From: Candidatus Aminicenantota bacterium
GTDB lineage: Bacteria > Acidobacteriota > Aminicenantia > Aminicenantales > Aminicenantaceae
DNA: 64,000 nt
Reading direction: 5' to 3'
Assembly: GCA_014727835.1 (NCBI GenBank)
Contig: WJMT01000070.1
Location: 62,001 to 126,000 of the forward strand
Made by a program: the position numbers and the translations under genes. Position 1 is the first letter of the stretch, and each line of letters opens with the position of its first letter. Positions 3,291 through 41,622 of this stretch are shown here, piece by piece. The notes below the pieces were generated by a model. That model was not told the origin of the DNA and searched no databases. It worked only from the letters and a program-made list of their open reading frames with translations.

Positions 3291-4019
3291 TTAAAAAATA
3301 TTCTTTAGAATGACAATCATTCCGGAAAAAGCAGAGGCAATGAGAACAGCTGGCCTTATCAAGCCCTTATCAAAAATTTTAGAAATGCGTTTTGATAAGA
3401 AAAAACCCACCAAAATGCCAGGAATCAATGTCAAGGAAGCGAGGATTTCTGTCAGGCCAAATCGTTTGATGATGATCAACGAGCCAATGGATATGATGGT
3501 GCCAAAAATAAAAATGGTGGAGAGTGATCCTCTGATTTTGGGTCCTTTTTGATGTTGATAAATGAGAGCCATAGGAGCCCCTCCAATGGCTGATGTGGTG
3601 CCCATCAATCCAGAAGCGGTTCCTGATCCAAGGAGATTTGCAGGTGTTAATTTCAGCTCAATACCAGAAACACTGATAACAACAGCAATAAGGACCATTC
3701 CTCCAAAAAGCAAGGACATGCTTTTTCGTGGGATGATAAAAAGCAAGGCTGAACCAAGCGCAGCTCCACAGATTCTGCCAGCAACAGCCCATTTGATTTC
3801 TTTTCCTTTGATGGTATGCCGTTCTCTCAGTGAAATGAGTATAGTGAGACACAGAGCGGATAATAAAACAGGTCCTGGGACAAAGATAGGATTTAGAATC
3901 ACTAGAAGTGGCACACCGATGAGTCCGAGGCCGAATCCAATCGAGCCCTGAAGTGTGGCCCCGCCTACGGCTATCAAAAGTCCGATTAATGATTCAGCCA
4001 GAGTTAAAGGAAAATTCAT
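3291..4019 (-). CDS. TauE/SafE (TSUP) family membrane exporter
   Basis: A 242-residue protein with about eight membrane segments arranged as two halves, each opening with a GGATLQGSIGFGLG/GTTSAIGGAPMAL glycine-rich motif typical of the TSUP family (anion or sulfite/organosulfonate export). The length is usual for the family. The substrate is not determinable. It ends 10 bases from the rpoD promoter and starts 23 bases downstream of the large Asp-box gene on the same strand, so it may be co-transcribed with that gene. The ribosome site is weak (GGTGGAG about 15 bases upstream). A second, only distantly similar TSUP gene is at 36459-37205. Confidence 0.8.
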   Translation of the reverse strand: MNFPLTLAESLIGLLIAVGGATLQGSIGFGLGLIGVPLLVILNPIFVPGPVLLSALCLTILISLRERHTIKGKEIKWAVAGRICGAALGSALLFIIPRKSMSLLFGGMVLIAVVISVSGIELKLTPANLLGSGTASGLMGTTSAIGGAPMALIYQHQKGPKIRGSLSTIFIFGTIISIGSLIIIKRFGLTEILASLTLIPGILVGFFLSKRISKIFDKGLIRPAVLIASAFSGMIVILKNIF

Positions 4020-4042: not shown

Positions 4043-7000
4043 TTAGGAATGGATCTCGGGTTCATCAAATTTGATGGATTCTTTTATGATCAATCGTGGG
4101 ATCTTGTTTTCAATCAATAGATTGTTCAGCTCAGGGATATCTTTTTCTATCATGGAGTTGGTGCGGGTTATGAGAGATTTCAATTGGCTGATATTGTCTT
4201 TGATCTCTTTGAGTTGGGATTCAGATGGGGGAGAGACGCTGCTTGATATTGAACTTCCAAGCATATAAAGCTTTCCTCTCAGGGAAGAAAGCATCCCTCT
4301 CCAGCCCTTTTCCGGGTCTCCATTCAGTTCGATCCGGACCTGTTTTATCTCTTTGGATATTGATTCGATCTTCTCATCAATGACCTCCGGAAGATCTTTG
4401 ACTTTTTTGAGGTCTGTTTTTAGGGAGCGGATATTTCTTGTGAGATTGGTGAGAGTGTCGTTTGTCTGGTTATAGGGTTCATAGAGTTTATAGAGCTGGT
4501 ACAAAGCATCATGTTGAGCTTTTCTGTCTTCAAATGTAGCATCGATTTGAGGATCACCCATGACTTCGATCATTTCTGATTGGTTTTCATTCGGTGTGTT
4601 CATGGTGACTTTGTATGTTCCGGGAAGGACAAAAGGAGTCGCTAATCTAAAATAGCTTCGGCCTCCTTGGGATGACTCGGGTGGATCGTATTTCAAATCC
4701 CATGTGATGCGATGGATTCCTGATTGTCCGGGCCCTTTGATGGATCTGACGACTTTATCTTCAGAATCTGAAATTTCAAAGGTGACTTTCTTGTCTTTCT
4801 CTTCTTTCAAATAATAATTGATCACAGCGCCCATAGGGGGATTGGGTGCCACAAACAATTTATCTCCGAGATTTCCTTTGTTGGAAAAGGCATTAAAATA
4901 AACCGCTGGATTGATCTTAAACAAAAAGAGAGGAGATTGAGTAGTCTGTTGATCCATCTGTTCCAGAAAAGTGATGTCATCCAGTATCCAGATGCTTCGT
5001 CCATGCGTTCCCAGAATCAAGTCATTTTCTTTGGGGTGAATAGCGATATCATCGACAGGAACAGTGGGGAAATTGGATTTGATTTGAATCCATTTGTTTC
5101 CTCGGTCCACAGAGAAATAAGCTCCTCTTTCTGTTCCAATAAACAAAAGGTCAGGATTGCGGTGGTGTTCCCTGATCACATTGACGATATGTGCTTCAGG
5201 GATCCCGTTTGAGATGTCTTTCCAATTTTTTCCAAAGTTTTCCGTGACAAAGACTTGAGCTCTGAAGTCATTGTTTCTGTGGCCGTCTAAGGTGGCATAG
5301 GCTCTCGCTTCAGCATGCTGGGAAGCGACGACTCTGGTAACATAAGTGAATTTTGTGTGATTCGGGATGTGAGAGCTGACATCTTCCCAGGTCTCTCCAC
5401 TGTCATGGGAGACTTGAACGAGCCCATCATCAGTTCCAACATAAAGAAGGCCTTGTTTGAGGGGAGATTCAGATATTGTTGTGATGTCCCCAAAATAAGC
5501 GATTCCATCATGTTTTGATAGGGTGTCTTCGTCTGGAATTTCCCCCATAAGAGGCATTTTTTCCCTGTTTGTTTGAGTGGTCAGGTCAGGTGTTTTTTCC
5601 CATGTTTCTCCTCTATCAGTTGAAATAAACAACCTGTTTCCTCCGTAATAGATCTTATTGGGATTGTGAGGGGATATATGTATCGGGGAATTCCAGTTGA
5701 ATCTGTACTCTTCGTCTTCGTCACTTTCAGGCATGGGCCTTAAGGACCTTCTCTCTCCGGTGACTCGGTCAATACGGAACAGGTTTCCATTTTGGGATTC
5801 CGCATATATTTTTGTGGGATCTGTGGGATCAACCTGGGTATAAAATCCATCTCCTCCTCCGATTTTTATCCAGTCAGCATTGGTGACTCCAAGTCTTGTC
5901 CGGGTTGCATTCGGGCCTCCCCAGCTCCCATTGTCTTGAAGGCCGCCGTAGACCCAATAGGGATCCTGCATATCAAATCCGATCTCATAGAACTGTCCTA
6001 AAGGGATGGTGTTAACAAAATCCCATGTATGACCTCTGTCATAGGAAAAGTAAATCCCTCCATCAGATCCGAGCACTATATGATTTGAATTCTCAGGATT
6101 GATCCACAGGGCATGATGGTCTCCATGAGGACTGGAAACCAAATCTGTTTTGAAAGATTTTCCACCATCCTCTGAATAATACATCCGAGCACCCAGGACC
6201 CATATCCTTTGCTCATTGTTGGGATCTATACGGATCTGGCTGTAGTACATAGGACGTGGATTTGTGCTGGACATTTTTTCCCAGGTGAATCCTTTGTCTT
6301 CTGAGCGGAAGACACCTCCTTTTTTGTTCTCAATGATTGCATAAACGACCTGAGGATCTTTATGATAAATATCGATTCCTATCCGGCCAATATCTCCGGA
6401 CGGAAGTCCTTTGGTCAGCTTTTTCCAGGTCTCGCCGCTGTCTGTGGTTTTGTACAATCCACTGTGGGGGCCTCCTCCGGAAAAACCCCATCCTCTTCGG
6501 CGGCGCTGGTAAGAAGCGGCATAAAGGATGTTGGGGCTCGCCGGGTCTATGGCCACATCCGAAAATCCGGTATCTTCATTGATAAACAGGGTGTTGGTCC
6601 ATGTCTTTCCTCCGTCCTCTGTTTTATAAAGCCCCCGCTCTTTATTGGGTCCCCAGAGATGGCCCAGTGCAGCCACATACACGACATCAGGATTTCTGGG
6701 ATGAATGACAATCCGGCCTATATGATGGGTCTCTTCAAGTCCCATATGATTCCATGTTTTGCCCCCGTCATTGGATTTGTAGACTCCATTCCCCCATGAA
6801 GAACTCTGCCGATTATTGGGTTCTCCGGTCCCTACCCAGACAATGTCTGGATTCGAGGGAGAAACAGTGACATCTCCTATGGAGCTTGTTTCCTGATCAT
6901 CAAAGATGGATTGCCAGGTGATGCCGTTATTGGTGGTTTTCCATAGTCCACCCGAAGCTGTCCCCACATAAATGGTATTGGGGTCGTTTTGGACCACAGC

Positions 7001-7186
7001 AAAGTCATCAATTCTTCCTCCCATATTCGCTGGACCGATATTCCTTAACTCCACCCGATCTAAGAGAGACTCGGAAATTGCCGTTGCGCTGTTGTTGTCT
7101 GCTTTTTTAGCGCTGGTAAAAAATAAACAAATCAAGACCATACAGAAAAATAAAAAAAGACGAGTTGTGAATCCCCTAACTTTCAA
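4043..7186 (-). CDS. Secreted sortilin-like Asp-box (BNR) propeller protein, 1047 aa
   Basis: Residues 8-25 form a signal peptide. From about 50 to 760 the protein carries at least ten Asp-box/BNR repeats of the pattern S/T-x-D-x-G-x-T-W (for example SNDGGKTW, TEDGGKTW, STDRGETW), typical of ten-bladed VPS10/sortilin or exo-sialidase-like propellers, plus a YGGLQDNGSW motif conserved in this group. Residues 790-880 are a beta-rich domain and about 890-1040 is a charged, coiled-coil-prone tail. Such proteins are often labelled glycosyl hydrolase, but no catalytic residues can be assigned; ligand binding or a secreted hydrolase are both possible. The start is TTG, with AAGGAGGA four bases upstream; no ATG precedes the signal core. 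A paralogue is at 22671-25397. Confidence 0.8.
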   Translation of the reverse strand: MKVRGFTTRLFLFFCMVLICLFFTSAKKADNNSATAISESLLDRVELRNIGPANMGGRIDDFAVVQNDPNTIYVGTASGGLWKTTNNGITWQSIFDDQETSSIGDVTVSPSNPDIVWVGTGEPNNRQSSSWGNGVYKSNDGGKTWNHMGLEETHHIGRIVIHPRNPDVVYVAALGHLWGPNKERGLYKTEDGGKTWTNTLFINEDTGFSDVAIDPASPNILYAASYQRRRRGWGFSGGGPHSGLYKTTDSGETWKKLTKGLPSGDIGRIGIDIYHKDPQVVYAIIENKKGGVFRSEDKGFTWEKMSSTNPRPMYYSQIRIDPNNEQRIWVLGARMYYSEDGGKSFKTDLVSSPHGDHHALWINPENSNHIVLGSDGGIYFSYDRGHTWDFVNTIPLGQFYEIGFDMQDPYWVYGGLQDNGSWGGPNATRTRLGVTNADWIKIGGGDGFYTQVDPTDPTKIYAESQNGNLFRIDRVTGERRSLRPMPESDEDEEYRFNWNSPIHISPHNPNKIYYGGNRLFISTDRGETWEKTPDLTTQTNREKMPLMGEIPDEDTLSKHDGIAYFGDITTISESPLKQGLLYVGTDDGLVQVSHDSGETWEDVSSHIPNHTKFTYVTRVVASQHAEARAYATLDGHRNNDFRAQVFVTENFGKNWKDISNGIPEAHIVNVIREHHRNPDLLFIGTERGAYFSVDRGNKWIQIKSNFPTVPVDDIAIHPKENDLILGTHGRSIWILDDITFLEQMDQQTTQSPLFLFKINPAVYFNAFSNKGNLGDKLFVAPNPPMGAVINYYLKEEKDKKVTFEISDSEDKVVRSIKGPGQSGIHRITWDLKYDPPESSQGGRSYFRLATPFVLPGTYKVTMNTPNENQSEMIEVMGDPQIDATFEDRKAQHDALYQLYKLYEPYNQTNDTLTNLTRNIRSLKTDLKKVKDLPEVIDEKIESISKEIKQVRIELNGDPEKGWRGMLSSLRGKLYMLGSSISSSVSPPSESQLKEIKDNISQLKSLITRTNSMIEKDIPELNNLLIENKIPRLIIKESIKFDEPEIHS

Positions 7187-7325
7187 TGTTTCCTCCTTTG
7201 ATCAATCATTAAAATGAAATCGAAAGCATCTGCCTTTCTTATAGATGCTCAAGTGATATTTATCATAACATGAGAGTATAAGTCAAAGAATCAGAATCAA
7301 ATTTGACAATCCAAGGAACTGATTA

Positions 7326-7585
7326 TTAACCTGGATTATTCACGAGTCAAGATTGCGGCAGATGCGAGGCCCAGGGCATGAAGATGCAGTCCTTCACTGC
7401 GAATGCCCTGTAACGAAGCAGATGCTGTAAGATCGACTCGCTTGCTGGGTCAACAAAAGGCGATTAAAATAGAAAAGACAAACATGAAAAATATTCCAAT
7501 CACTGTTCTAAACAAATTCTTGTATATCGCAGAAATGAATATAATAATGAAAACATCGCTATTTTTTATGAATAGTCCAGGTTAA
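7326..7585 (+). repeat. TIR element, copy 1 (MITE-like)
   Basis: A 260-base element bounded by TTAACCTGGATTATTCA on the left and TGAATAGTCCAGGTTAA on the right, a nearly perfect inverted pair. If CCTGG is the true end, both sides are flanked by TTAA. The left third holds nested inverted repeats: CGAGTC (7343-7348) with GACTCG (7435-7440), and AGGGCAT (7373-7379) with ATGCCCT (7403-7409). It contains no credible coding frame. It fills nearly all of the 371-base gap between the Asp-box gene and the VanZ-like gene, whose ATG begins one base after the element. Copy 3 (41361-41622) is closely similar throughout; copy 2 shares the ends and right half. Confidence 0.8.
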
Positions 7586-7586
7586 C

Positions 7587-8006
7587 ATGGATAAAAGAAA
7601 AAAAAGTTTTCTCGGTATGATTAAACACAGAAAAAAATGGCTTTATTTCTTGCCCGCCTTTTTGTATTACGCTCTGATATTTTTCCTTTCTTCAAGAAGT
7701 TATCAGACCAAAGTGGAGGTGCCTTTTTTCGATAAATTCCTTCATCTGCTGGAGTTTGCCGGATTGGGTTTTCTTCTTTCTCTGGGTTTTTATGCGAGAG
7801 ACGTTTCCCTTAAATCCAGGTTTGGTTTGGTTTTTTCCATAGGATTGATTCTTTCTGGGTTAGATGAACTTCATCAATTTTTTGTGCCCATGAGATACAT
7901 GGATGGATTTGATTTGATTGCTGATATGATCGGTGTGATCACTGGTTTTTTTGTTTTCATTTTTATTTCTCGAAAGCTGAAATGGAACCATTCCCGAGAT
8001 TCTTGA
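7587..8006 (+). CDS. VanZ-like family membrane protein
   Basis: A 139-residue protein with four membrane segments and the VanZ signature: FFLSSRS in segment 1, DKFLHLLEFAGLGFLL in segment 2, LDELHQFFVPMRYMDGFDLIADMIGV before segment 4. The family is widespread and mostly uncharacterised; VanZ itself modifies teicoplanin resistance, which is not implied here. The first ATG (7587) directly abuts repeat copy 1 and has no ribosome site. A second in-frame ATG at 7617 also lacks a clear one, so either translation begins without one or the element replaced the original upstream region. Confidence 0.8.
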   Translation: MDKRKKSFLGMIKHRKKWLYFLPAFLYYALIFFLSSRSYQTKVEVPFFDKFLHLLEFAGLGFLLSLGFYARDVSLKSRFGLVFSIGLILSGLDELHQFFVPMRYMDGFDLIADMIGVITGFFVFIFISRKLKWNHSRDS

Positions 8007-10656: not shown

Positions 10657-11039
10657 TAAACCTGCATTACTCATGAGTCTATATTTTAGGCCTGATGAAA
10701 CTCATATATGACTTGTGCTCCGTTCAGATTTTTAAGGCTATTCTTCGCACTGTATTTTCGGCTGCTGCGCAACTTCCTCCATCCGTGGGTCAAACATGCT
10801 CGCAGCTCAGCATTGCTGAGTTTCCTTATATACAGCGCTCAGAAGGCACAATCTTCAATGTCGCTTCAGCCATACCTGAGTTTCAGATGGATTCGCCAGG
10901 AGTGTCAAACAATGGCGATTAGAATAGAAAATACAAAGATGAGAATTGTATAGATCATAGGCCAAAAAAAACTTGTATATCGCAGAGAAGAGTACAATAA
11001 TAAAAACATCGCCATTTCTTTGTGAATAGTCCAGGTCAA
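10657..11039 (+). repeat. TIR element, copy 2 (variant core)
   Basis: A 383-base element with left end TAAACCTGCATTACTCATGAGTC and right end TGAATAGTCCAGGTCAA (rough inverted pair). From the segment CAAtGGCGATTAgAATAGAAAA (about 10909) to the right end it matches copies 1 and 3, including CTTGTATATCGCAGA and AACATCGCCATTT. The left 250 bases (10680-10905) have no similarity to the hairpin core of the other copies, so the two classes look like different internal-deletion derivatives of one parent. Open frames inside it (10695-10953) have no coding character. Its right end lies 15 bases before the ATG of the DUF3160 lipoprotein. Confidence 0.75.
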
Positions 11040-11054
11040 TGAATGGGGGAAAAA

Positions 11055-13169
11055 ATGAAAACATATAAACTTGTGGGAGGCGTATTGATTTGCTTTGTTT
11101 TGATAAGCGGATGTCATCTGAGTGGGGAGAGTCCAAAGAGTTTCCGTTTGCAGGAGCTTGACCTTTTGAATCAGCTCAATTTGAGTGAGACAGGTCTTGA
11201 ACAACTGAAACAGAATGGCTTTGTGGTCACTCTTGGTTCAGAAAAAGAAATGTTTGATATTTATCTGGACTGCAAAAAACAAAACCATCCTGTTTTTATC
11301 ACCACAGATGTGGTTCTCCATACAGCCCATCTTTTTTTTGATAAGACATTAAGAGTCCTTGAGATGGAGAGACTCATAGACCGTTCCAAAGAGCTCACTG
11401 AACGAATGATTGAGATCTCCAAAACCCAATATCAAAAAGCAGATGACTCTGTTATCAAGGAAGCGGCCCGGCTGAACATTGGATTTTTCTCTGTCGCAAA
11501 GTCCTTATTTGAACCGGATTTCCAACCGGGTTTCAACCTGGATAAACTGGTGAACGAAGAGTTGAAGAATATCCAGGAACATGAGGGATTGAAATTCAGG
11601 AAACTTATGTCTTATGTGGAAAATCCAGCTCTAATCAAACATCCTTATGCTTATGAAGATTACAGTCAGTATGTACCCAGGGGACATTACACTCGGAATG
11701 AGTTGTTTGCAAAGTATTTTAAGGTCTTGATGTGGTATGGAAGGATCGACTTCAAATTGAGTCCAGGAACAGATCAAGAAGCCCTTTATCACGGACAAAA
11801 AATGACCCTTCAGGCTCTATTGATCACTGATGCCCTGATGAGGGACAAACGAGCTCATCAATTGTGGAACAGCCTCTATGAGCCCACTGTTTATTTTGTA
11901 GGAAAGACCGATGATTTGAGTGTAAAGGATTTCATTCCTCTTATAGAAGAGGTTTATGGTTCTAAAAAAAGCATTGATGATTACAATCACAAAGAACCTC
12001 TGTCCCAATTCATAGAAAGAGCCATTGAATCGAGACCTCCCCAAATTCTTTCTGGTGTGTCTTTTCAAGAAGATGGAGATTTTCAGAAGATCCATTTGGG
12101 ATTCCGCTTCATGGGACAGAGGTTTATCCCGGATTCATATATTTTCCAGCAGCTGGTTTATGGACAAGAGAAACTCATGTATGTGGGCCACAATGAGCCA
12201 TTCACTATGGAATACATCCCTAATGTGGGCCCTGCCAGAGCGTTTCCGAGAGGATTGGATCTGTTTGCAGTGTTGGGATCGCAGAGGGCTCTGGATATTT
12301 TAAAAAAACAGGGAGATACAAGATATAAAGGATATTCTGAACAGCTCCATCAATTGAAAAAAGAATTTTCTTCATTGACCGATTCCCAGTGGAAAAAGAA
12401 TCTTTACTGGCGCTGGATTCACAGCTTTCTTCCTTTGTTAAAAGAGCCCCGGGGAGAGACCGTTCCTGATTTCATGAAGAATCTCTCATGGATAGACAAG
12501 CAGCTCTTGACCGTACTGGGCTCTTGGACCGAGCTGAGGCATGATACCATCCTTTATGCCAAACAGAGTTACACGGTTATGGGAAGAGCACCGATGCCAA
12601 AATCCGCCTTCACGTATGGTTTTGTGGAGCCCTATCCCCAGGTCTTTGACAGAATCAAGGGAATGATGTCCAAACTCAGGCAAATGAATGGAAAGTGGGG
12701 CCAAGGCATTCCTGAGGTACAGAACAAGATCAAAGATTTTGAAGATGTTCTCTCTAAATTAATTGTTATTTCGAAAAAGGAGCTGCAAAACAGGCCCTTG
12801 ACCAAGCAGGAATATGATTTTATCTGGAATATCGGCAGCACTCTTAAAGAATTGAAAACATTTCCCTTAAATATACAAAATAAAATCAGCTCAAGCACAG
12901 ATGAACGTATAGACATCATTGCTGATGTTCACACAGACCTGAATACCAAACAGGTGCTTGAAGAAGGGGTGGGTTCTCCGTTACATATCTATGTGATGCT
13001 CAAAGATATAAAGGGCTTTCGTTTGAGTCACGGAGCTGTATTTTCTTATTATGAATTCAAGCATGCATTGAAAGACCGATTAACGGATGAAAAGTGGCAG
13101 GAAATGGGGCAGAATCATCAAAGACCGGGCCTTCCCGAATGGACACGAAGTTTTATATCTGATCGTTGA
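11055..13169 (+). CDS. DUF3160 family lipoprotein
   Basis: A protein of 704 residues from this start. Residues 1-20 are a lipoprotein signal with lipobox LISGC, so cysteine 20 is the likely acylated residue. The body matches the DUF3160 family in outline: the conserved FVVT opening and [22 protein letters not shown] near residue 75, followed by an all-helical body with [15 protein letters not shown] and [17 protein letters not shown]. Function is unknown in the family; location is probably the outer-membrane inner leaflet or the surface. The ATG at 11055 follows GGGGGA and is preferred over ATG 11043, which contains that site. Its 3' end overlaps the convergent YyaL gene by 17 bases. Confidence 0.85.
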
Positions 13170-22670: not shown

Positions 22671-25397
22671 TTATTTGTACCAGTGGTCTTTGAGTATGGA
22701 GCTTTTTTTAGTGATTTCTGTTCCGTCCACACAGAGTTTGAAGAGGTAATCTCCACATCTGACAGGTTCGTATGAATAGTCCACATCAATCTCCATATTG
22801 TATCCATATGATCGGTACATTTTGATGCGCTCTCGGATCATCTTTTTCTCTTCGGGTGTTCTTTCTTTTCTTTGAGTCATGTTCCAGAGGATCTGATTCA
22901 GTCCGGCTTTATTGGTGCCTTTGATTTCATTGATCATGAAACCGCCTTTATAGACCTGCAGTTTGACATCATTTTCTGCGGGCTTTTTCAGGTAGTAGTT
23001 GATCACAAGTCCTCTGCGTTCACTTTCCCCATTGAAATTGGATGAGCTGTAATTGATGTTTTTATTGCTGATCCATTTCACCTTAGGTTCAATGTCAAAT
23101 AAGTGGACATCTTTTTCCAATACAGATTTGGATAGCTGCTGTAAGAAGGTGATATCTGTGATGAAAATGCCCCGTCCGTGTGTGGCCACTACCAGGTCAT
23201 TTTCCCTGGAATGGATGACCAAGTCATGGACCGGCTGAGTAGGCATATCCCCTTTCATCTTATTCCAGCTCTGGCCAGCATCTAGAGATACATAAACAGC
23301 AAATTCGGTTCCTACAAACAGCAAATCAGGATTGGTATGATCCTCTTTGACTACATTTATGGGTTCCTCAGGAAGACCAGCCGAGATATCAGTCCAAGTC
23401 TTTCCAAAATCTTCAGTTTTGTAAAGAAAAGCTCTGAAATCGTCCCTTCTGTAACCAGTGTATGAGACATATGCTGTGCCGGGAAAATGATGAGATGCCG
23501 TTACTCTGCTGACCCAATATCCGGGATTTCCTGTTATATTCTGATTCAATTGAGTCCAATCTTTTCCCATGTTTTTGGTCATCCAGACATTGCCGTCATC
23601 TGTACCGACCCACAGAAGTCCCAGTACAAGAGGGGATTCATCAAAGGAAGTTATGGTGCAGTACTGGATGTTTCCGTCTCCGCCTTTTCCAGTGGTTAGT
23701 TTTTCAGGGTCGTTTGTGGTCAAGTCCGGACTGATCACTTCCCATGATTCTCCTCTAAAAGAAGACCGGACAACTTTATTGCCGCAGTGATAGATCACGT
23801 CACTGTTGTGAGAAGAGACCAGGATCGGTGAGTTCCAATTCCATCTCATATCCCTGTCTATATTCCGATATGCAATGCTTTTGGTTTCTCCGGTGAGCAA
23901 ATCTGTTCTCTGGAGAGGCCCGAATTGAGATTCATTGTACAGGTATCTGTTGTTTTTCCAATCAAACACATTGTACATTCCATCTCCTCCGCCCACTCTC
24001 TGCCAGTCTTCGAACCGGATAGGACTGTAGTCGCGTTTGGTGTGAGGACCCATTTGAGATCCGTTATCCTGGAGGCCTCCAGCCACATTGTATGGGTAGG
24101 ACATATCCACTCCCACAGCATAAAACTGGGCTAAAGGAATGTTATCTGGATGATACCAGTGCTTCCCTCCGTCATAGGTGATCCCCATACCATGGTCATA
24201 CCCCAACCACATATGTTCAGAATTTTTGGGATTTATCCATAAGGCATGATCGTCGCCACCAAATCCGAGAGGCCGTCTCTCCCATGTTTTTCCGCCGTCA
24301 TAAGTTCCCCATGAAGCAGCGCTCAACACATGCACCACCTGGTCATCATTGGGATCGATGATGATCTGACCGTAATAATAAGCAGGGCGTCCGCCAATGC
24401 TTTGACCGTCCGGGCTGACCTTTTTCCAAGTCTTGCCCGCATCATCTGACCGATAGACTTCTCCACCGATCATTCCTTCACTGGATTGATCATTCAGGAG
24501 CTCTTGATATCGTTCTTCATCAGACATTCCGGATTTGTTGGCATTTTCAATCGTGGCGTACACAATATTCGGATTTTTTCGATACACATCAAGACCGATA
24601 CGCCCCAGCATCCCCTCCGGAAGACCGCCTCCGAGTTTTGTCCAGGTTTCTCCGGCATTTGTGGATTTGTAGATCCGGCTGCCCGGACCTCCCAGGTTAA
24701 AAGTGTAGGGCTTTCTGACTTTATCATAAGTGGCTGCATAGAGAATATCGGGATTTGTTGGGTCCATGACACAGTCCACCACTCCGATTTGTTTTCCTCT
24801 GATCTTCATGTCTAAGACCTTTTTCCAGGTTTTTCCCCCGTCTTCTGTTTTGTAAAGTCCCCGTTCGGGATTTTCTGAATAAAGATGGCCCAGTGCAGCT
24901 ACATACAGGATATCCGGATTTGTGGGATGGATCTCTATGGCGCCGATATGATGAGATTCTTTCAATCCCATGTTTGTCCAGGTTTTTCCTGCATCTGTGG
25001 ACTTGTACATTCCATCTCCCCAGTAAGAGCTTCGGCTGTTGTTTGCTTCTCCGGTTCCTACCCATATGATTTCTGGGTGAGACGGAGATACAGCCACGTC
25101 TCCGATAGAGAAAACGTTTTGATTGGTGAAAAGAGGTTTGAAAGTGATCCCATTGTCTGTTGTTTTCCACAGTCCTCCACTTGCGGTAGCCGCATAGAAC
25201 GTATGGGGTTCTTTTTCACACCAGGCAAAATCCACATATCTGCCCCCCTGGCGAGTCGGTCCGATTTCACGGTATTTCACACGATTTGAAAAATTCTCTT
25301 CCATTGCCTGGCTGAACAGCATGACACTGCTGACCAAAAACAGACAGACCAGCAGTCCAGCAGTCCGATAAAACACATTCTTTTTTTGAATTCGCAT
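22671..25397 (-). CDS. Secreted sortilin-like Asp-box propeller protein, 908 aa
   Basis: A signal peptide spans residues 9-31. About ten Asp-box repeats follow (TTDNGITF, STDAGKTW, TEDGGKTW, SDDAGKTW, TEDFGKTW, SLDAGQSW), with the shared AGGLQDNGS motif and VGTGEANNSRSSYWGDGMYKS blade. It is a clear paralogue of the 4043-7186 product, but has an insertion near residue 300 (MSDEERYQELLNDQSSEG) and lacks that protein's coiled tail; its C-terminus is a short beta domain (EPVRCGDYLFKLCVDG). The start has GAGGAGG at four-base spacing. It lies 21 bases downstream of the TonB receptor gene, so the two probably form an operon, suggesting a surface binding or degradation role. Confidence 0.8.
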   Translation of the reverse strand: MRIQKKNVFYRTAGLLVCLFLVSSVMLFSQAMEENFSNRVKYREIGPTRQGGRYVDFAWCEKEPHTFYAATASGGLWKTTDNGITFKPLFTNQNVFSIGDVAVSPSHPEIIWVGTGEANNSRSSYWGDGMYKSTDAGKTWTNMGLKESHHIGAIEIHPTNPDILYVAALGHLYSENPERGLYKTEDGGKTWKKVLDMKIRGKQIGVVDCVMDPTNPDILYAATYDKVRKPYTFNLGGPGSRIYKSTNAGETWTKLGGGLPEGMLGRIGLDVYRKNPNIVYATIENANKSGMSDEERYQELLNDQSSEGMIGGEVYRSDDAGKTWKKVSPDGQSIGGRPAYYYGQIIIDPNDDQVVHVLSAASWGTYDGGKTWERRPLGFGGDDHALWINPKNSEHMWLGYDHGMGITYDGGKHWYHPDNIPLAQFYAVGVDMSYPYNVAGGLQDNGSQMGPHTKRDYSPIRFEDWQRVGGGDGMYNVFDWKNNRYLYNESQFGPLQRTDLLTGETKSIAYRNIDRDMRWNWNSPILVSSHNSDVIYHCGNKVVRSSFRGESWEVISPDLTTNDPEKLTTGKGGDGNIQYCTITSFDESPLVLGLLWVGTDDGNVWMTKNMGKDWTQLNQNITGNPGYWVSRVTASHHFPGTAYVSYTGYRRDDFRAFLYKTEDFGKTWTDISAGLPEEPINVVKEDHTNPDLLFVGTEFAVYVSLDAGQSWNKMKGDMPTQPVHDLVIHSRENDLVVATHGRGIFITDITFLQQLSKSVLEKDVHLFDIEPKVKWISNKNINYSSSNFNGESERRGLVINYYLKKPAENDVKLQVYKGGFMINEIKGTNKAGLNQILWNMTQRKERTPEEKKMIRERIKMYRSYGYNMEIDVDYSYEPVRCGDYLFKLCVDGTEITKKSSILKDHWYK

Positions 25398-41360: not shown

Positions 41361-41622
41361 TTAACCTGGACTCTTCATAAAAAAATGGTGATGTATTTAT
41401 TATTCATTTTCTTTCAGCGATATACAAGATTATTTGTAAGAACCTTTATCTGAACATTTTTCTTGTTTGTGTTTTCTCTTTTAATCGCCATTTTTTGACC
41501 TTCCAGGCGAGCCCATCTTACGGCATCTGTTTTGTTACAGGGCATTCGCAGTGAAGGACCACCACTTCATGCTCTGTGCCTCGCATCTGCCGTTATCTTG
41601 ACTCGTGAATAATTCAAATTAA
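41361..41622 (-). repeat. TIR element, copy 3 (MITE-like)
   Basis: A 262-base element in reverse orientation to copy 1. Its right end (41361 side) begins TTAACCTGGACTCTTCAT and its left end (41622 side) reads, on the minus strand, TTAATTTGAATTATTCACGAGTC. On the minus strand it matches copy 1 along its whole length, including the hairpin core with ACGGC paired to GCCGT and GCATGAAG...CTTCACTGCGAATGC. It lies in the 430-base divergent gap between the purF-like gene and the 41759 gene, with its right end facing the purF-like start, the same polarity as the other copies. Positions 41623-41758 hold nothing else I can identify. Confidence 0.8.

Follow-up and report, generated by a model that had tools for sequence, protein, structure and literature searches.

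The element at positions 7330–7581 of the window, a stretch of 64,000 nucleotides from Candidatus Aminicenantota bacterium, is a non-coding transposable repeat of 252 bp and probably, judging from comparison of its copies, a MITE that, when transcribed, forms a self-contained domain of folded RNA. Its core hairpin is real, and the recurrence of this hairpin in many differently ended mobile repeats throughout the phylum suggests a structured RNA that travels with jumping DNA. In a transcript, the ends of the element would pair and its two arms would fold immediately, giving a closed RNA domain that keeps clear of the ribosome site of the following gene. Insertions before genes would thus be harmless, and fold-keeping lineages would persist.

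The element, with 13-bp inverted ends CCTGGATTATTCA and TGAATAGTCCAGG, is flanked on both sides by TTAA. Read from the sequence, the left target duplication (4 bp) lies at 7326–7329 and the right one at 7582–7585, and a VanZ-like gene starts with its ATG at 7587. Between them, on the plus strand, are the left terminal inverted repeat CCTGGATTATTCA (7330–7342), the core hairpin P2 with its conserved internal loops (7343–7440), which is the main finding of this study, a mini-hairpin of 3 bp (7441–7449), the left arm AAAAGGCGAT (7455–7464) and right arm ATCGCTATTTTTT (7555–7567) of a second stem, P3, and finally the right terminal inverted repeat (7569–7581), which reads CCTGGACTATTCA on the minus strand. 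The initial annotation delimited the core hairpin correctly and missed the element around it, as the inverted ends, the second stem and the mini-hairpin all lie outside the stretch it described.

The outer pairing proposed for the core, CGAGTC (7343–7348) with GACTCG (7435–7440) and the AGGGCAT/ATGCCCT arms, was found as described, and the fold is strong. As RNA, 7343–7441 folds at −44.8 kcal/mol (z −5.2), with none of 200 shuffled sequences as good. The two inner pairs proposed together, GAAG with CTTC and GCAGT with ACTGC, cross each other and are incompatible in one nested fold, so that they are to be read as alternatives. The GCAGT/ACTGC register is limited to this copy and a few others; in the family consensus the tip is closed by GTGG/YCAC.

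A covariance model built from Aminicenantes copies only (R1) matched 7331–7451 with 115.3 bits, the model including this copy. Another full element with TTAA on both sides lies on the minus strand (41365–41618); its core match (41497–41617, minus strand) scored 121.7 bits, which is not independent as this copy was also among those that built R1. A further copy on the plus strand (10661–11035) has had its core displaced by a nested palindromic repeat (approximately 10690–10885), for which reason the core had rightly been assigned to two of the elements only. The palindromic repeat has 28 matches in the same genome and also borders an element copy at 46.9 kb of G000:C105. A DUF3160 gene (PF11369, E = 1e-191) is located at 11043–13169, directly behind the copy at 10661–11035.

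In the genome of the window (3.1 Mb in 132 contigs), 42 matches were given by BLAST and likewise 42 by the covariance model. The element was present in 34 of 60 genomes, the genome of the window included: 32 of 37 of its own family and two of 23 others of the order. Named relatives gave at least 113 matches, all to Candidatus Aminicenantes among the matches listed. The fetched loci contained 304 profile matches, of which 242 were full and 212 distinct; the right end was in reach in 158 of these 212, most of the remaining copies running off the contig. Copy numbers range from tens to hundreds per genome. Contigs start or stop inside or beside the element (L005, L016 and L018–L023 in G000, the genome of the window, and many contigs of G004); these copy numbers are therefore lower bounds, since assemblies break at the element.

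Complete copies were mostly 240–259 or 180–199 bp long, and no open reading frame of 80 aa or more was found within the element. Exact 4-bp target duplications with the consensus YTAR flanked 40 of 128 testable copies, compared to 7.3 with shuffled partners (maximum 15). With its short inverted ends, target duplication, non-coding and multi-copy nature and an autonomous relative with near-identical ends, the element has the properties of a MITE. Several derivatives were observed. In G014, three minimal copies of about 60 bp (L188, L190 and L194) retain the left end and about 20 nt more, fused to the right end, and in five others (L189, L192, L193, L195 and L196) the core is cut short or interrupted by a different palindromic repeat of the GCGAAGCAATCTC type. 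At L006, L010, L104, L154, L053 and L171 elements stand in tandem, separated by spacers of about 4 nt that are not YTAR-like.

The autonomous relative (L173) was found in another genome of the same family. It is an IS1380-type transposon with a transposase (PF13701, E = 8e-157; NF033539, 399 bits) in an intact reading frame of 446 aa. Its ends TAAACCTGAATAATTCATAAA are 21 nt long and 90% complementary, and its end sequence CCTGAATAATTCATAAA agrees with that at the right end of the repeat. It differs from the MITE in encoding a transposase and in having no core near its left end, as read by eye. One other locus (L178) is a fragment with one L173-like end; such ends were not found at L174, L175, L176 or L177. 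Within the family, 18 of 38 genomes match an IS1380-type transposase, some of them only weakly or in part, and six score above the curated cut-off. We infer that an IS1380-like transposase moves, or moved, the repeat in trans. An IS1380-derived MITE would be expected to have its transposase in the same genome, and the genome of the window, a MAG of 92% completeness, gave no match to this transposase. The genomes bearing the transposase are also not those richest in copies, which counts against the reading preferred here. No larger, transposase-bearing form of the core element was seen in an unsystematic look at the 54 copies lacking a nearby right end, most of which run off the contig.

Covariation was assessed on 106 cores that were not fixed by the search pattern and that align nearly gap-free. 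Another 96 cores, exactly matching the fetching pattern, were left out because this pattern fixes one side of a stem. A structure of 38 pairs was scored on 70 of the 106 cores, with at most 14 per genome. Of the 2660 cells, 95.9% were paired, and both sides had changed in 26 of the 38 pairs. Double changes occupied 193 cells, compared to 36.5±8.4 after shuffling and 16–39 when partners were slid, and none of 500 shuffles reached the observed covariation. When 7381 column pairs were ranked by score, 11 of the top 13 belonged to the structure; the other two (columns 112–118 and 113–117) form the co-varying mini-hairpin (consensus CCC/CCT-nnn-GGG/AGG), which was absent from the tested structure.

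On a tree of the 106 copies, changes that keep a pair outnumbered those that break one by 260 to 116. The kept share of 0.69 lies above that of random re-pairing of the same columns (0.51±0.06, highest value 0.66 in 200 tries), so pairs are not broken as often as they are kept, and the proposal that selection acts on the hairpin, as RNA or as DNA, is supported. Under a tree-aware null, the G-test gave E<0.05 for seven of 30 pairs when the structure alone was tested and for one pair in an all-against-all comparison, which again counts against the preferred reading. Compensatory change exceeds the shuffled and phylogenetic nulls and is only partly upheld by the tree-aware G-test. The kept share was 0.83 for inner branches and fell to 0.63 for terminal ones, on which 97 of 263 keep-or-break changes break a pair. 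The fold is therefore kept best in the lineages that spread, with decay in many single copies, and many of the latter may be unconstrained, which weakens the preferred reading. The unpaired bases of the core are as conserved as the paired ones, some being near-invariant, and tandem G-A mismatches could be read off the alignment within GCAGATGC/GCAGATGC and AGAT/AGAT.

The intermediates of pair change are not symmetrical. On the strand as read, Watson-Crick pairs changed to G-T in 102 events on the tree and to A-C in 35. For the 26 pairs with Watson-Crick as the commonest form, terminal branches gave G-T and A-C in a ratio of 59:29, and inner branches in a ratio of 32:4. Counted as cells, G-T exceeds A-C by 450 to 38, a ratio that is partly circular as the structure was predicted on this same strand. 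Mutation bias is not the explanation, since in the paired columns G>A changes (127) are at least as frequent as C>T changes (107). No such lean would be expected of a double-stranded palindrome, and it points to one single strand; RNA is most likely its carrier, being the simplest, and single-stranded DNA is possible. The changed arms of the minus-strand copy, ACGGC/GCCGT in 41497–41617 where the copy at 7330–7581 has GCGGC/GCTGT, were reported correctly in the initial annotation, and the differences are one-sided exchanges from wobble to Watson-Crick pairs. In two-armed relatives, in which two cores face each other, wobbles are few and both arms lean alike, each on its own strand (63:30 for the left arm and 38:17 for the right). 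This is at odds with selection on one strand of the element and weakens the preferred reading.

The lean also bears on the alternative that the fold serves transposition, as a hairpin of single-stranded or cruciform DNA recognised by a transposase or a host factor, in which case fold-keeping lineages would be those that keep jumping. Better pair keeping on inner than on terminal branches is what selection on propagating lineages would give, the core is common to repeats with unrelated ends and similar YTAR boundaries, and as DNA, too, the core hairpin folds stably (−18.8 kcal/mol, z −2.4). The excess of G-T over A-C, however, calls for one strand, and the ends and target duplications resemble those of an ordinary double-strand DDE element. 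Near-coreless minimal copies (L188, L190 and L194) exist as well, though these are perhaps deletions that followed insertion. On balance a DNA role in transposition is rather unlikely. A foldback transposition substrate as such, which had been proposed for the hairpin, is unsupported, since the short inverted ends are of the ordinary kind and, like the target duplications of 4 bp, resemble those of a DDE-transposase MITE. Foldback substrates of the IS200/IS605 type have subterminal hairpins and neither inverted ends nor target duplication, and both of the latter are present here.

For an RNA domain formed in transcripts, the position relative to genes is of interest. Over 157 copies, some without a gene in reach and with genes taken as longest open reading frames rather than from a trained gene finder, the right end faced 85 gene starts and 31 gene ends (p = 5e-7), at a median gap of 39 nt. 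The left end faced 51 starts and 50 ends. Starts and ends at the right end numbered 14:3 in the genome of the window (G000), 7:1 in G011, 8:2 in JAUWNW, 11:7 in G004 and 9:9 in JAFGMO; the bias is not universal, a further point against the preferred reading. This bias and the conserved internal loops would also be expected if each copy were a working cis-regulator, a leader binding a ligand or protein and recruited by the genes behind it. Such a role is improbable: two of the five genomes taken separately show little or no bias, many copies are broken and no promoter enrichment was found. A right-half promoter, TTGCAT-N17-GATAAT, was striking by eye in several copies and was rejected, as its best score on the plus strand did not exceed that of shuffled sequences and on the minus strand was slightly higher.

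The second stem, just inside the right end, varies in sequence among genera and subfamilies with its complementarity kept: the longest complementary run averages 11.3 within an element and 7.6 across elements. This GC stem is flanked by an A-run at its left arm and a T-run at its right arm, so that the stem and T-run might end transcription in both directions and make the element an insulator. This too is improbable, as the loop of about 90 nt in most copies is too long for a usual intrinsic terminator and a core in such an element would need no covariation. The least likely rival is template switching between the arms of an imperfect palindrome, rewriting both sides without selection on the fold: whole stems swapped at once among subfamilies (P3) and the almost exclusively Watson-Crick variants of GC-rich relatives would suit it, yet such correction would erase internal loops, whose unpaired bases show the same conservation as paired ones, and would give equal G-T and A-C intermediates instead of 102:35, and both loops and wobble polarity are largely kept across independent lineages beyond any strand bias.

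The hairpin, here read as part of an RNA domain, is not confined to the Aminicenantes. In the phylum, which we take to be Acidobacteriota (GTDB), R1 gave matches in 12 of 297 genomes; seven of these lie outside the class and order and scored 36–49 bits. When these seven distant genomes were added to the model (R2), 48 of the 297 genomes and 34 of 167 genera were matched. Of 56 distant loci given, 51 yielded a row, and in 36 of these inverted ends were present that matched each other with a score of at least 20. These ends represent at least five unrelated sequences, with boundaries that are mostly CTAG or TTAG and a span of about 240–290 bp. At many distant loci two core matches stand head to head, sharing at their centre the mini-hairpin, which corresponds to 7441–7449 in the window (helix 6 in the 70-copy structure, helix 7 in the distant-row analysis) and is the symmetry centre of these two-armed relatives. 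Across 95 distant rows, all distinct, double changes were seen in 35 of the 38 pairs, in 778 cells compared to 234 after shuffling, in an alignment that was fitted to the model and so leans to the structure; controls with slid partners (83–173) lean likewise, to a lesser extent. The positions invariant everywhere are the AG and AC of RAGGC/GCAAC.

These data are compatible with a tentative reading, somewhat less probable than its negation, of an undescribed, phylum-wide class of structured RNA with a RAGGC/GCAAC core loop flanked by GCAGATGC repeats. It would travel with transposons as a passenger domain, having been taken up between their ends by several unrelated elements with YTAR targets, and would ancestrally have had two head-to-head arms, one of which became a fast-changing stem in the Aminicenantes. 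Rfam showed nothing near the gathering score in 7000–8000 of the window or in five relatives. No match was found by blastn in plasmids to the elements of L276, L337 or L344, or in phages to that of L276, and viral contigs gave none to one exact pattern. A pattern search for a transposon with the ends of one distant repeat hit 12 places in four genomes, comprising four pairs of MITE length and four single ends and no pair of transposon length.

Descriptions of bacterial MITEs usually treat the sequence between the ends as filler. In the present repeats it is this filler that is conserved, as a multi-loop fold with compensatory change that is common to elements with unrelated ends. No description of this repeat was found in the literature on Aminicenantes repeats or noncoding RNA, on the core motif or on MITEs with hairpins. 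As far as the consulted parts of the sources go, transcripts of MITEs have been reviewed as stable stem-loops that are cleaved by RNase III or RNase E in the case of Correia and ERIC and that may act as riboswitches or terminators (PMC10969869, PMC2229807, PMC3049150). ERIC and the Correia/NEMIS MITEs are similar as small intergenic inverted-repeat elements whose folding transcripts are described in these parts as cleavable by RNase E or RNase III (PMC10969869, PMC2229807). By their descriptions they are set apart from the present element by its several helices with counted compensatory change, its conserved internal loops and a core combined with unrelated ends. The pneumococcal BOX repeats, in the sections of PMC3049150 consulted, are likewise modular with an extended structure and are transcribed as 5' and 3' extensions of operons; their modules differ by description. 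The Caulobacter CIR repeats share two hairpin arms with a linker and are distinguished by a GANTC motif described in the loop (PMC2229807, in part). The word 'compensatory' occurs in neither PMC2229807 nor PMC3049150. Whether selection in such repeats acts on an RNA fold and not on the inverted ends can now be tested, and covariance models can be used to find and trace such repeats in other phyla.

Two other repeats were observed in the window. A direct repeat (6598–6884 and 24824–25110, 72% identical) lies in coding sequence that looks, by eye, like BNR/sortilin-like paralogues, and 604–643 and 3512–3551 form an inverted repeat pair of 40 nt with 83% complementarity.
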